A stretch of 60,269 bases of DNA from Synechococcus sp. J7-Johnson. GTDB taxonomy: Bacteria > Cyanobacteriota > Cyanobacteriia > PCC-6307 > Cyanobiaceae. Positions 11,627 to 18,675 of this stretch are shown here, one piece after another. Within the stretch, counting starts at the first letter, position 1, and each line of letters begins with the position of its first letter. The notes beneath the pieces are model-generated. The model was not told the origin of the DNA and did not search any database. It worked only from the letters and a program-made list of their open reading frames with translations. The stretch spans positions 1 through 60,269 of the forward strand of contig NZ_JAGQBU010000017.1 in the NCBI RefSeq assembly GCF_024345795.1, written 5' to 3'. The translations under genes were made by a program, and so were the position numbers.

Positions 11627-12628
11627 TCAGCCTTCCCGCAACCAGCGGGCTGCCTCACAGGCGTGATACGTGAGGATCAGATCGGCCCCGGCCCGTTTGA
11701 AGCAGAGGAGGGTTTCCAGCACCACAGCCCGCTCATCGATCCAGCCCCGCTCGGCGGCCGCCTTGACCATGGAATATTCACCACTGACGTTGTAGGCGGC
11801 GATCGGCAGTTCGGTTTCACCGCGCAGGCGGTGGATGATGTCGAGGTAGGCCAGGCCTGGCTTCACCATCAAGATGTCGGCCCCCTCCTGTTCGTCAAGC
11901 AGGGCTTCGGTAAGCGACTCCCGACCATTGGCCGGATCCATCTGGTAGGTGCTCTTGTCCTTGGGAATGGGCTTGCTGGAGTCGGTGCGCGGGGCGGAAT
12001 CCAGGGCCTCACGGAAGGGGCCGTAATACGCGGAGGCGTACTTGGCGGTGTAACTGATGATCCCCACGTGCTCGAAACCCTCCTCATCGAGGGCTTCGCG
12101 GATGGCGCCGACACGGCCATCCATCATGTCGCTGGGGCCGATCAGATCAGCTCCTGCCCTGGCCTGGGCAACCGCCTGGCGGCAGAGGATCGCGACAGTG
12201 TCGTCGTTGAGCACCACGCCTTCAGAGCTGACGATGCCGTCATGACCGTCGCAGGAGTAAGGGTCAAGGGCCACATCGGTCATGATCGCCATGCCGGGAT
12301 GGTCCTGCTTGAGCCGCCGGATCGCGCGGGGGATCAGGCCACCCTCGTTGAAGCATTCAGCGCCGTCCTCGGTTTTGAGGCCGTCGGCGACCTTGGGAAA
12401 GAGCACCACACAGCGGATGCCGAGATCCCAGGCACGGCCAACCTCCTCCACCAGCCCGTCCAGGCTCCAACGCTGGGCACCGGGCATGGCAGCGATCGGC
12501 TCGTTGCTGGCCCCCTCATGCACGAACAGGGGGTAGATGAAATCGGCGGGGCTGAGCTGGAACTCGCGCACCATGGCCCTGAGGGCTGGCGTGCGGCGCA
12601 GGCGCCGCGGACGGTAGGTGAGTTCCAT
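11627..12628 (-). CDS. hemB: Delta-aminolevulinic acid dehydratase (porphobilinogen synthase), 333 aa
   Basis: HemB condenses two 5-aminolevulinate molecules to porphobilinogen for heme, chlorophyll and bilins. Both Schiff-base lysines are visible, in SYTAKYASAYYGPF and ILMVKPGLAYLD. The metal site region DVALDPYSCDGHDGI lacks the three-cysteine zinc cluster of the Zn enzymes, so this is the Mg-type enzyme of plants and cyanobacteria. The start at 12628 (MELTYRPRRLRRTPALRAMV) matches the family. The frame remains open upstream with no homologous residues. The length is normal. Confidence 0.95.
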   Translation of the reverse strand: MELTYRPRRLRRTPALRAMVREFQLSPADFIYPLFVHEGASNEPIAAMPGAQRWSLDGLVEEVGRAWDLGIRCVVLFPKVADGLKTEDGAECFNEGGLIPRAIRRLKQDHPGMAIMTDVALDPYSCDGHDGIVSSEGVVLNDDTVAILCRQAVAQARAGADLIGPSDMMDGRVGAIREALDEEGFEHVGIISYTAKYASAYYGPFREALDSAPRTDSSKPIPKDKSTYQMDPANGRESLTEALLDEQEGADILMVKPGLAYLDIIHRLRGETELPIAAYNVSGEYSMVKAAAERGWIDERAVVLETLLCFKRAGADLILTYHACEAARWLREG

Positions 12629-12707: not shown

Positions 12708-13814
12708 TCAAACAAGCCAGGCAAGAATGGCGACAACAAAGAATCCAGTCAGTGCACTTAGTTGAAATATTTTATCTACACTATTAATTTTCTTCAAGGC
12801 GTCACCTTTCTGATGATCAAGCGATGTCGCATAAACATTGCTGCCCCACAGAAAGAACACAAACAACACAAGCGCAACAATATAGGAATATGCATAGAGA
12901 TAATCGAGGAAGGTAAGATAACTCAGGGATGGCAACTCAGCCTTGTATGATTGCTGGAGGAAGATCAGAGTCAGTAGGGCGGTAGAAGGAATGGCCAGGC
13001 GGATCTCACCGAGTTCCCCATCCAGCAGGGGGGCCAGCAACACAATCAGCATCACGATCAGAAGCGGCAGGATCCAGGTCACGAAACTGGAGAACGGATC
13101 GCCCCTCATCACCACCTGAACACTGAGGCGCGAGTAATCCAGATCACCCTGATCCAGCCCCCAGTTTGTCCCGTAGGAATGGAGCGACGATACAGATCGA
13201 ACTGACTCAATATCATAACCATTGATCGATGCATAACTACCAACCTTGCTGTTGCCTGAATCGGTATCGGGAACAAGCACAACATTCCCCAGTTGGCGCG
13301 CCAATGCGTCAGGAACAACTTCAAGAACCAGTGGCAACACCAAGCGTTCAAAAGGTGACCGCCTGAGATCAACGTCGGGAATGTAAAGACTCGTGGAAAA
13401 ACGAAAGAGTTGATAAAAACGATCTCCAGGCCTGGCCACCGGGGCCGCCGCATCCGGCTGGATCAGGGCCGACGACGAGTTCACCTGATTGGTAATCTCC
13501 ACCAGCTGAAGCGGGGTGATTCCCTTAGCCTCCATCAGGTTCTGCACCTGCCTTGGCCATTCCAGCCAATAGAACCCCTCAGCATTGAAGATCCTCTGCC
13601 GCAAGGACAAGCTGTGAAGGTTCTCGATAAACGTGCCGACCTCGATCCCGATTGCGTTCGAGTCGACAAGTTCCGTCCCAGGATTCACCAACCTGGACTC
13701 TTCGTGAACCAGTCCCGTTGGCAAACCTCGCTCCGGCGGAACAACTGCCTTCAGGGCCACCAAGACTCCTATCACCAGGAGCGCCAACCAAAGCCACCAC
13801 CGTTGCCGACCCAA
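12708..13814 (-). CDS. Pentameric ligand-gated ion channel (Cys-loop receptor superfamily) homologue, 368 aa
   Basis: The chain starts with a hydrophobic N-terminal segment (residues 6-23, signal or anchor). An extracellular domain then carries IEVGTFIENLHSLSL and, at 143-165, YIPDVDLRRSPFERLVLPL. The latter corresponds to the conserved D-x-R-x-x-P-F-x-x-Q Pro-loop of pLGICs. Four helices follow at about 244-264, 271-291, 303-327 and 348-367. The M2-M3 loop ELPSLSYLTFLD matches the LP-x-x-x-Y-x-T-x-x-D pattern of ELIC-type channels. There is no cysteine in the protein, as in other prokaryotic members. The start is a TTG. Base composition is lower in GC than its neighbours, suggesting acquisition. 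The ligand and ion are unknown. Confidence 0.78.
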   Translation of the reverse strand: MGRQRWWLWLALLVIGVLVALKAVVPPERGLPTGLVHEESRLVNPGTELVDSNAIGIEVGTFIENLHSLSLRQRIFNAEGFYWLEWPRQVQNLMEAKGITPLQLVEITNQVNSSSALIQPDAAAPVARPGDRFYQLFRFSTSLYIPDVDLRRSPFERLVLPLVLEVVPDALARQLGNVVLVPDTDSGNSKVGSYASINGYDIESVRSVSSLHSYGTNWGLDQGDLDYSRLSVQVVMRGDPFSSFVTWILPLLIVMLIVLLAPLLDGELGEIRLAIPSTALLTLIFLQQSYKAELPSLSYLTFLDYLYAYSYIVALVLFVFFLWGSNVYATSLDHQKGDALKKINSVDKIFQLSALTGFFVVAILAWLV

Positions 13815-13875: not shown

Positions 13876-14865
13876 TCAGAGCCTGGCGGCCTTCATCCAG
13901 TCACGGCGGGGATCAAGGCTGCGGGCCTCACGCAGCTTCTCCAGCAGCTGCCGCTCTGTGTCGCTGAAGCACTCCGGCAGCTTGAGGGTGAGGCTGAGCA
14001 GGAGATCACCCCGCCCATCCTTGATTGGCCAGCCCTTGCCTTTGAGTCGCAGGCTGCGACCCAGGGCCACACCGGGGGGTACCTGCACGGTGGCTTCCCC
14101 ATCGGGGGTGGCCACCCTCACCTCCCCGCCAAGAGCCAGCTCATCGAGGCTGAGAGGCAGATCGGCGCGTAGCTGATCGCCATCCAGGCGCCAGATCGGG
14201 TGGTCCTGGAGCTGAAGATTGAGGTAGAGATCGCCGCGGCGGCCGGTGCCGGGCTGCAGGTTGCCCTTGCCCTTGAGCCGCAGGCGGCTGCCGCTCCGCA
14301 CCCCGGCCGGAACACGCACCTGCACCCGCTCCTCGTTGACGGCCAAGGTGCGCTCACAGCCACGGAAGGCTTCAGCGAAGCTGAGGCTGATGGTGGCTTC
14401 CGCATCCAGATTGAGGACGCCACTTCGGCCTGTCGCTGGCCCGCCGAAACCGCTGGCGAAGCCTCCGGGAAAACCGCCCGAGAACCCGAACCCACCGGGG
14501 CCTGCCCCGAAACCGGAACTTCCCTGGGCCCCGCCGAAGCGGCCGAGCAGGTCGTTTATGAATTCGTCGAAGTTGCCGTAGCGGCCGAAATCCACATCGA
14601 AGCCCGGGGCTGCGCCGGCACCTGCACCGGCCTGGCTCCAGTACTGGCCGAACTGCTCGTAGCGCCGACGCTTGTCGGGGTCGGAGAGCACCTCATAGGC
14701 CTCACTGATCTCCTTGAACTTGGCCTCGGCCGTGGCATCACCTGGGTTCACATCCGGGTGGTACTGACGGGCCAGCTTGCGAAACGAGCGCTTGACGGCA
14801 TCGGCATCAGCACTGCGCTCGACGCCCAGCACCTTGAAGTAGTCGCGGTAGCCGTTGGCATTCAT
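13876..14865 (-). CDS. DnaJ/CbpA-type J-domain co-chaperone, 329 aa
   Basis: An N-terminal J domain ([20 protein letters not shown]) with the HPD motif in [12 protein letters not shown] stimulates Hsp70 ATPase. It is followed by a Gly/Phe-rich region (about residues 90-150). The two beta-sandwich DnaJ C-terminal substrate-binding domains come next ([19 protein letters not shown] and [19 protein letters not shown]). The cysteine-rich zinc finger is absent, so it is a type II (CbpA-like) DnaJ. The start at 14865 ([10 protein letters not shown]) is set by the J domain. It is divergent from the thioredoxin-like gene. Confidence 0.92.
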
Positions 14866-14999
14866 CGAGGCAAGCCCATCGGTACGCGATTCGTCGCATG
14901 AGCTCCAGTGTCCCAGCCAAAGGTTCGAACAGGTGGCCCCCAAAAGGGCGGAAGCCCGAACGCAGCCCTAATCTCGGAGTATCTGAGACTGGGATTTTC

Positions 15000-17904: not shown

Positions 17905-18675
17905 ATGGTGATGCGCCGCTTGGGCATGCTGCTGAAGCTGGTTCTGGTTCTGGTGCCCCTGGTAGCGCTCAAGGTGCTGGCCATGGCCCGGGGCTGGGAG
18001 GTGCTCGCGGCCACACCCCTGTTCGCCGGACTGATCACCTCCAATGTCTTTCTGATCGGCTTCCTGTTCAACGGCGTGCTCACCGACTACAAGGAAAGTG
18101 AGAAGTGTCCCGCCCAGCTCGCCGAAACCCTGTTGAGCCTGGTTGCGGAGTTACAGGCGCTGGGCTGGGCACGGCCAGAAGCCGACCCGTCGGCGGCCCT
18201 GGGCACCCTGGCTCAGCTCGGGCCAGGCTTCCTGGGCTGGTTCCATGGCACCACCTGCGCCAACCAGCTGTTCGAGCTGATGGATCGGCTCAATGCCGAC
18301 CTGGCGCAGCTCCGCGACAACTGTGAGTCACCCTTCATGACACGGTTGCTTCAAGAGCTGGCGTCGCTTCGGAGCCAGTTGCTGCGCATGGAGACGATCC
18401 GTTCGATTCCCTTCGTCCCCACGGTGTACTGGTTATCAGCCACCAGCACCACCGTGTTGTGCGCCGGCCTGGTACTGACCCACATGGAGGGCTGGGCGGA
18501 GATCTTCTTCTATCTCGGTGCGATCGCCTTTCTGATGGTGTTCATCCTGCTGATGATCTGGGATCTGGACAATCCCTTCGGCCATGGCGAGTTCTCCTCG
18601 TGCGAGAACATCAGCCTGGAGCCCCTGGAGCGGACGCTGGCCCGGATCATCAACCCACAGAACCCCGAGAGTTGA
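17905..18675 (+). CDS. Membrane protein with bestrophin-like (DUF4239-type) layout, 256 aa
   Basis: Two N-terminal helices (LLKLVLVLVPLVALKVLAMA and TPLFAGLITSNVFLIGFLFN) are followed by VLTDYKESEKCPAQLAETLL. A soluble, Leu-rich middle comes next, then two helices (STTVLCAGLVLTHM and IFFYLGAIAFLMVFILLMIW), directly followed by DLDNPFGHGEF. The order of two helices, helical domain, two helices and a D-N-P-F motif resembles the bestrophin-like DUF4239 family, which is proposed to form channels. The assignment is tentative. GGGGG at 17891-17895 upstream may be the ribosome binding site. A 43-aa membrane peptide gene follows. Confidence 0.55.
   Translation: MVMRRLGMLLKLVLVLVPLVALKVLAMARGWEVLAATPLFAGLITSNVFLIGFLFNGVLTDYKESEKCPAQLAETLLSLVAELQALGWARPEADPSAALGTLAQLGPGFLGWFHGTTCANQLFELMDRLNADLAQLRDNCESPFMTRLLQELASLRSQLLRMETIRSIPFVPTVYWLSATSTTVLCAGLVLTHMEGWAEIFFYLGAIAFLMVFILLMIWDLDNPFGHGEFSSCENISLEPLERTLARIINPQNPES

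Follow-up and report, generated by a model that had tools for sequence, protein, structure and literature searches.

Among prokaryotic pentameric ligand-gated ion channels (pLGICs, or Pro-loop receptors), the structures closest to the protein described here are GLIC of the cyanobacterium Gloeobacter violaceus, sTeLIC, and ELIC of Erwinia/Dickeya, each of which works without a binding protein. That a periplasmic binding protein might cooperate with such a channel is not a new principle, since passages of Tasneem 2004 (PMC549065) propose that bacterial pLGICs are helped by fused PBP-I domains and by neighbouring PBP-II or Cache proteins. A figure legend in the same paper places Synechococcus among the species with pLGICs, as does a passage of Jaiteh 2016 (PMC4795631), which also states that none of the pLGICs from unicellular organisms has a known biological role.

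Here we describe a pLGIC homologue, built on the plan of animal nerve receptors, from the freshwater-type cyanobacterium Synechococcus sp. J7-Johnson, encoded within 60,269 nucleotides of contig NZ_JAGQBU010000017.1, the whole of which we call the window. It is not the first cyanobacterial pLGIC: GLIC comes from Gloeobacter, and lists of 2004 and 2016 already include Synechococcus. The novelty that an earlier note on this DNA had expected for this group of phototrophs does not hold up against those two listings or against the relatives carried by 60 of the 201 sampled genomes of the window's family, where one genome may have as many as four matches, fragments included. Our best reading is that the window protein is a cation channel whose family is frequently linked to sensing by binding proteins; the genes of urea- or amino-acid-type binding proteins beside those of its relatives suggest that such channels may report dissolved nutrients.

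Gene and predicted structure

The gene is an intact ORF of 368 amino acids with a TTG start (12708..13814, minus strand) and is the one channel match in its own genome. It shares its strand with the genes on either side, a dnaJ-type ORF upstream (13876..14943), whose true start may be internal, and hemB downstream (11627..12628), both of which serve as flanking anchors outside the channel. As the earlier note had observed, its GC content (0.52) is below that of hemB (0.647) and dnaJ (0.66), and also below that of the window (0.663); the cysteine count of the product is zero, again as described.

The Cys-loop receptor plan that had been read from the letters, a beta-rich extracellular half followed by four helices, is borne out by sequence and structure comparison, the sequence match lying beyond chance. 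A single-protein phmmer search of the PDB recovered a GLIC-GABA chimera (E 2.3e-7, residues 45-321), and a 66-row family profile matched ELIC (E 9.7e-31, profile positions 38-349) and, along the receptor, GLIC (E 2.8e-22). From a 66-member family alignment AlphaFold2 returned a monomer model (pLDDT 92.2, pTM 0.83) in which beta strands precede four long helices at 240-263, 266-291, 302-330 and 333-367. Foldseek ranked GLIC and sTeLIC ahead, the top PDB match being GLIC (6.8e-20; TM-score 0.67 by query, 0.79 by target), and VIA-align, applied solely to chains that Foldseek had placed high, gave GLIC a Z of 23.3 (rmsd 3.1 over 285 residues), tied with sTeLIC (23.2), ELIC (22.7) and several animal receptors near 22.7. 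Calling the channel ELIC-type is fair, with the family profile favouring ELIC, Foldseek putting GLIC and sTeLIC first and the Z scores of GLIC and ELIC tied. The product of 12708-13814 is a pLGIC homologue, matched over nearly its full length and comprising a beta-sandwich extracellular domain and a four-helix transmembrane domain; its assembly as a pentamer is predicted.

Library profiles, which the earlier note had put forward as a check, behaved differently. A Pfam scan of the window protein gave no match to Neur_chan_LBD or Neur_chan_memb up to E 10, Neur_chan_memb was matched below the cut-off in two of ten relatives scanned, and the NCBIfam matches to LGIC_1 (7e-4) and TIGR00860 (0.01) fell far under their cut-offs. 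These libraries are unsuited as a deciding test because they are too weak for so divergent a family.

The chain begins with a hydrophobic helix (residues 2-24; 13743..13811) that is present in the AlphaFold2 model and absent from the earlier description, and that may, to judge from predicted secondary structure, be a signal peptide or an uncleaved anchor. The extracellular beta-sandwich domain, placed by the model and alignments (residues 39-238; 13101..13700), contains the Pro loop DVDLRRSPFERLVLPL (residues 147-162; 13329..13376), in which the translation and a 128-row alignment identify P154 and, at the canonical Asp position, E156. The model and alignment then delimit M1 (residues 240-263; 13026..13097), with P250; the pore helix M2 (residues 266-291; 12942..13019), continuous in the monomer model, a feature that the earlier note had named as support for the call; the M2-M3 loop ELPSLSYLTFLD (residues 292-301; 12912..12941), with P295; and M3 (residues 302-330; 12825..12911), whose D304 occurs in 128/128 rows. 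M4 (residues 333-367; 12714..12818) is placed by the model, and all these segments lie on the minus strand. Both loops stand in the translation as the earlier note had quoted them. Counted in prime numbers from the 0' Arg, M2 carries E270 (-2'), R272 (0'), P276 (4'), T278 (6'), L281 (9'), F285 (13') and Q287-Q288 (15'-16').

Elsewhere in the window, 17905-18675 encodes a membrane protein whose Bestrophin-like match is weak (6.5e-5, under the cut-off) and which is another possible channel.

Pore and coupling residues

GLIC and the window channel share the fold, the Pro-loop Pro, the beta9 aromatic, the M1 and M2-M3 prolines and a cyanobacterial source, but they are about 20% identical, GLIC's loop-A WxP is missing from the window channel, and GLIC Asp122 and Arg192 correspond to E156 and G238. 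ELIC, the best family-profile match, has in common with it the LPxLxY of the M2-M3 loop, R at 0' and L at 9'; by contrast, the window channel lacks ELIC's loop-A WxP and pre-M1 Arg, and the two pores differ at 4' (S in ELIC, P here), 13' (A, F) and 15'/16' (A/F, Q/Q).

Conservation was counted over 128 family rows aligned with ELIC and the GLIC-GABA chimera, and compared with Table 1 of Jaiteh 2016. Seven partial channel ORFs were removed before counting, as was the L117 ORF, a presumed shadow frame set aside with no further check, which left 128 of 129 rows; the chimera has a GABA-A pore, and the pore comparison therefore excludes GLIC's own M2. The Pro-loop Pro (P154) is found in 128/128 rows, the beta9 aromatic (Y200) in 123/128, the M1 Pro (P250) and the M2-M3 Pro (P295) in 126/128 each, R/K at 0' (R272) in 128/128 and Leu 9' (L281) in 126/128. 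Aromatics are also retained in the loop C region, with Y at window residue 214 in 99/128 rows and F/Y at 227 in 99/128.

The Pro-loop Asp and pre-M1 Arg, a common pair, are mostly lost from the subfamily as aligned. Table 1 of Jaiteh 2016 (PMC4795631) gives 100% for the Pro-loop Pro, 93% for the Asp of F/YPxD and 94% for the pre-M1 Arg; in our rows the Asp position holds D in 30/128 and E in 25/128, and the pre-M1 position R in 7/128 and K in 8/128. The window channel retains the acid as E156, with Asp absent, and has G238 in place of the Arg; a one-column shift would bring R237 to the pre-M1 position, where R/K then occurs in 43/128 rows. Five distant outliers (L055, L057, L058, L059 and L060) have both Asp and Arg. 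The group linked to LIV-type binding proteins has neither acid nor base at the pair (23/23 rows), and the group lying between dnaJ and hemB has an acid (D/E) in 10/14 rows and a base in 0/14.

The subfamily carries a pore signature of D/E at -2' (112/128 rows), Pro at 4' (125/128), Phe at 13' (117/128), Gln at 15' (124/128) and Gln at 16' (108/128), which is complete in the window channel. Work on GLIC has tied an acidic -2' ring to cation selectivity. Given its acidic -2', Leu 9' and Phe 13' rings, the predicted pore is probably cation-selective and closed at rest.

Six family ORFs span 655-885 codons from stop to stop; an N-terminal sensor fusion was considered for them and rejected, Pfam giving no second domain at E<=0.1, and we take the extra length as open frame alone.

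Binding-protein genes beside related channels

A scan of contigs yielded 109 relatives. The best 80 of the 109, which make up 79 loci, come from Synechococcus, Cyanobium, Vulcanococcus and WH7803 and from records titled Myxococcota, Gammaproteobacteria (Luminiphilus, Halieaceae) and Verrucomicrobiales, phylum labels that are partly unsure, one Verrucomicrobiales contig (L093) clustering among gammaproteobacterial ones. In a sample of Myxococcota, the L091 channel had matches in 30 of 282 genomes; seven strong places (E<=1e-143) lay in six genomes already known and added no independent pair, and the remainder stood at E 4e-28 and worse. A virus origin was also considered and rejected, a single-protein scan of viral contigs giving no relative. 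Groupings below refer to a quick tree of 106 rows, from which the GLIC chimera and rows more than 88% identical had been dropped; its branches are long and many of its forks open, and it is used for well-supported local groups alone.

At 22 loci (two in one MAG) a gene of ~440 amino acids directly adjoins the channel on the same strand. In 19 of the 27 non-cyanobacterial loci this UrtA-like partner lies upstream of the channel, and in three loci of marine Synechococcus (L134, L135 and L137) it lies downstream; the other 8 of the 27 have no UrtA-like partner, and at L127, on the same contig as L019, UrtA is convergent with the channel. An in-frame channel start overlaps the partner's stop by 4 bases in seven of the 19 upstream cases. 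A clade separate from that of the window (SH-aLRT 99) has the partner in 15 of its 17 rows. Channel and partner distances are correlated (r 0.93 over 22 pairs, with 0 of 2000 permutations as high), and a single clade of channel-linked UrtA-like proteins has a p-AU of 0.21. One of these contigs (L135, 8.5 kb, a Synechococcus MAG) bears several channel ORFs, one of them broken, one adjoining the UrtA-like gene and one on the opposite strand.

All six partners tested match Peripla_BP_5 at E 7.6e-124 or better, and the partner resembles UrtA, the substrate-binding protein of the urea ABC transporter (8HIC; E 4.6e-109 and 5e-140 in two tested). The UrtA residues W120, S122, Y141, Q144, E146, Y190, N246 and S274 are given as conserved at the urea site in a passage of PMC10392092; all eight are retained in 23/24 partner rows, and L139 differs at two. 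A lipobox-like cysteine is visible by eye in about half of 24 partner N-termini. Close as they are to UrtA, the partners differ from it in score, with 437-462 bits in three tested against an NCBI UrtA cut-off of 492.75, and in setting: no UrtB-E gene was found at E<=1e-40 in the pair loci, where flanks extend at most 6 kb and some contigs are shorter, and the same queries did recover such genes in L222. UrtB homologues occur in 4/19 pair-bearing genomes, the four with a second, more distant UrtA, and are absent from 15/19; strong urease alpha (>180 bits) is likewise present in 4/19 and missing in 15/19. The urease search gave matches in 13/21 genomes, 11 above the curated 23 bits, and we infer that the weak ones (21-27 bits) are other amidohydrolases. 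In WH7803 the channel is followed directly by the UrtA-like gene (L137, 5935-8363), and that genome, titled complete, has no UrtB or urease-alpha match. Most pair-bearing genomes have no detected transporter for the UrtA-like protein. Many are MAGs, in which the lack of UrtB or urease genes may reflect gaps and the phylum assignments may be mistaken.

A second subclade (25 rows, SH-aLRT 100) is linked to a different binding protein, with the channel divergent from a LIV-type Peripla_BP_6 gene in 18/25 rows (L144-L158 and several of L029-L069 show this arrangement). The LIV gene was not found in 7/25 rows, four of which form one branch and one of which lies at a contig end. Across the 201 family genomes, 27 of the 33 closest LIV-type proteins (E<=1e-78, set against 89 main channel places with split fragments excluded) adjoin a channel, 26 of them divergently; six have no channel nearby. 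Here, too, channel and partner distances are correlated (r 0.82 over 18 pairs, excluding L104, L069 and near-copies; 0 of 2000 permutations as high). Such correlated distances show co-inheritance, not contact.

These arrangements share with the systems treated in passages of Tasneem 2004 (PMC549065) the idea of a periplasmic binding protein cooperating with the channel, and differ in that the UrtA-like and LIV-type proteins are free-standing and that the urea site is intact in the UrtA-like ones. Among the matches listed, we found no paper in the open-licence literature on a pairing of UrtA-like or LIV-type proteins with a pLGIC.

At the window locus no UrtA-like or LIV-type gene lies next to the channel, in keeping with the earlier remark that an obvious partner gene is lacking. 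Peripla_BP_6 was matched twice in the window's genome, each time in an operon that also encodes a permease and an ATPase: one is an urt operon beside urease genes and the other a liv-type operon on C68. In a search of the Peripla_BP_6 family alone, a dedicated unlinked partner was thereby rejected, both matches belonging to transporter operons. With UrtA found in 147 of the 201 family genomes, it says little that all nine genomes in which the channel sits between dnaJ and hemB have it too. Within the window's genus UrtA occurs in 9/9 genomes and any channel match in 3/9, and G081, whose channel L008 groups with that of the window in a 10-row clade, falls outside the 147; the presence of UrtA thus does not track the channel. 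The same genome as the window also has an acetamidase/formamidase gene (L160, 10191-11444) beside urt and urease accessory genes.

Proposed mechanism and alternatives

What might these channels sense? Two binding-protein types on two subclades of one channel family are most simply read as periplasmic solute sensing through binding proteins. Building on the observed family membership, subunit fold, pore composition, conservation and gene pairing in relatives, we tentatively propose, giving it a little under an even chance, that the subfamily links nutrient sensing by a binding protein to cation permeability, and that the window member is a homopentameric channel keeping this mode with a binding protein encoded elsewhere. 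The window gene would supply one subunit of a plasma-membrane homopentamer whose ligand-sensing half is periplasmic and whose M2 pore, with its three rings, is predicted to pass cations and to be shut at rest. A binding protein would read the periplasmic level of a nutrient (urea, a small amide or an amino acid) and, once loaded, would gate the channel and change cation permeability; the window member may operate in the same way. If true, this would parallel animal glutamate receptors, in which a binding-protein-like domain gates the channel, although here the sensor would be a protein of its own and the channel would have another fold. A conserved pair whose binding protein has a predictable ligand, such as that of WH7803, provides a concrete candidate agonist.

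For the window copy, nutrient sensing through a binding protein is an extrapolation from relatives, and several results argue against it: no binding-protein gene lies beside the channel and both Peripla_BP_6 genes belong to transporter operons, the window clade is separate from the UrtA-linked one, the presence of UrtA fails to follow that of the channel, unpaired members are found (6/33 lone LIV-type proteins, 7/25 LIV-clade rows, 8/27 loci), and adjacency with correlated distances can stem from joint inheritance without contact. We consider it unlikely, if far from implausible, that these are two-component ionotropic receptors, in which a loaded urea binder (or, in the LIV-linked clade, an amino-acid binder) docks on a pLGIC devoid of the Asp-Arg pair and the window channel is an orphan borrowing a transporter's binder. 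A serious contender, to which we would give somewhat less than an even chance, is a self-contained pLGIC like GLIC or ELIC that responds to protons or a small free ligand on its own extracellular domain, so that the pairing of its relatives is irrelevant to the window clade. The three closest structures all work without a binding protein, the loop C aromatics are retained, a same-clade relative sits in a genome without UrtA, and neither the window channel nor any other between dnaJ and hemB directly adjoins an UrtA-like or LIV-type gene (that of L104 lies ~4 kb off, beside a second channel). Against this stand the two related subclades with adjacent binding proteins of two different types, and the absence in 14/14 dnaJ-hemB rows of the pre-M1 Arg, half of the pair thought to couple the ligand site to the pore. 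Sensing through a binding protein encoded elsewhere remains the reading that we tentatively, and narrowly, prefer for the window channel.

Two further explanations concern the history of the gene. From its GC content and position the earlier note had proposed that it was acquired, and a GC deficit of -0.146 together with patchy presence in the genus would fit a recent horizontal arrival; we now regard this as very improbable. The dnaJ-channel-hemB order recurs in at least nine family genomes of at least six genus codes (g1, g48, g6, g31, g44, g19) and on further contigs, a tally that is a lower bound, taken from the subset of channel places that was fetched, and the closest orthologues are similarly GC-poor (L002 -0.110, L003 -0.150, L004 -0.098, L083 -0.116), so that low GC is no mark of recent arrival. 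The remaining dnaJ-hemB loci lie between -0.192 and +0.054, and the mean over 124 other loci is -0.052 (sd 0.048). Could the gene instead be degenerate or dying, its fold kept and its gating or conduction gone? In the window's genus 7/9 genomes have no channel between dnaJ and hemB; of the two that do, one (Synechococcus sp. 1G10, G124) has the orthologue L002 split over two frames, with the switch close to residue 315, inside M3. Other copies are broken (G005, with a TAG, and G090) or reduced to remnants (G142:C17). The window copy argues against such decay, being intact, complete in its pore signature and under purifying selection, with dN/dS of 0.12 against L003, 0.14 against L004 and 0.085 against L083 (dS is high, 1.3-2.6, and saturated against L005), and we think decay improbable. 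We read the dnaJ-hemB channel as an old locus, repeatedly lost and maintained under selection in the window. On the tree the dnaJ-hemB label changes six times, at least four of them by starred branches, which indicates that relocation or repeated transfer also occurred.

In one genome of the window's genus (G182; L224, 4352-5386) a DDE transposase lies between dnaJ and hemB, at the site of the channel in the window. The channels of Vulcanococcus type (L112 4748-5794, and similar ones in L105, L122 and L124) are divergent from a conserved gene, which in L112, the one scanned, carries DUF4912.
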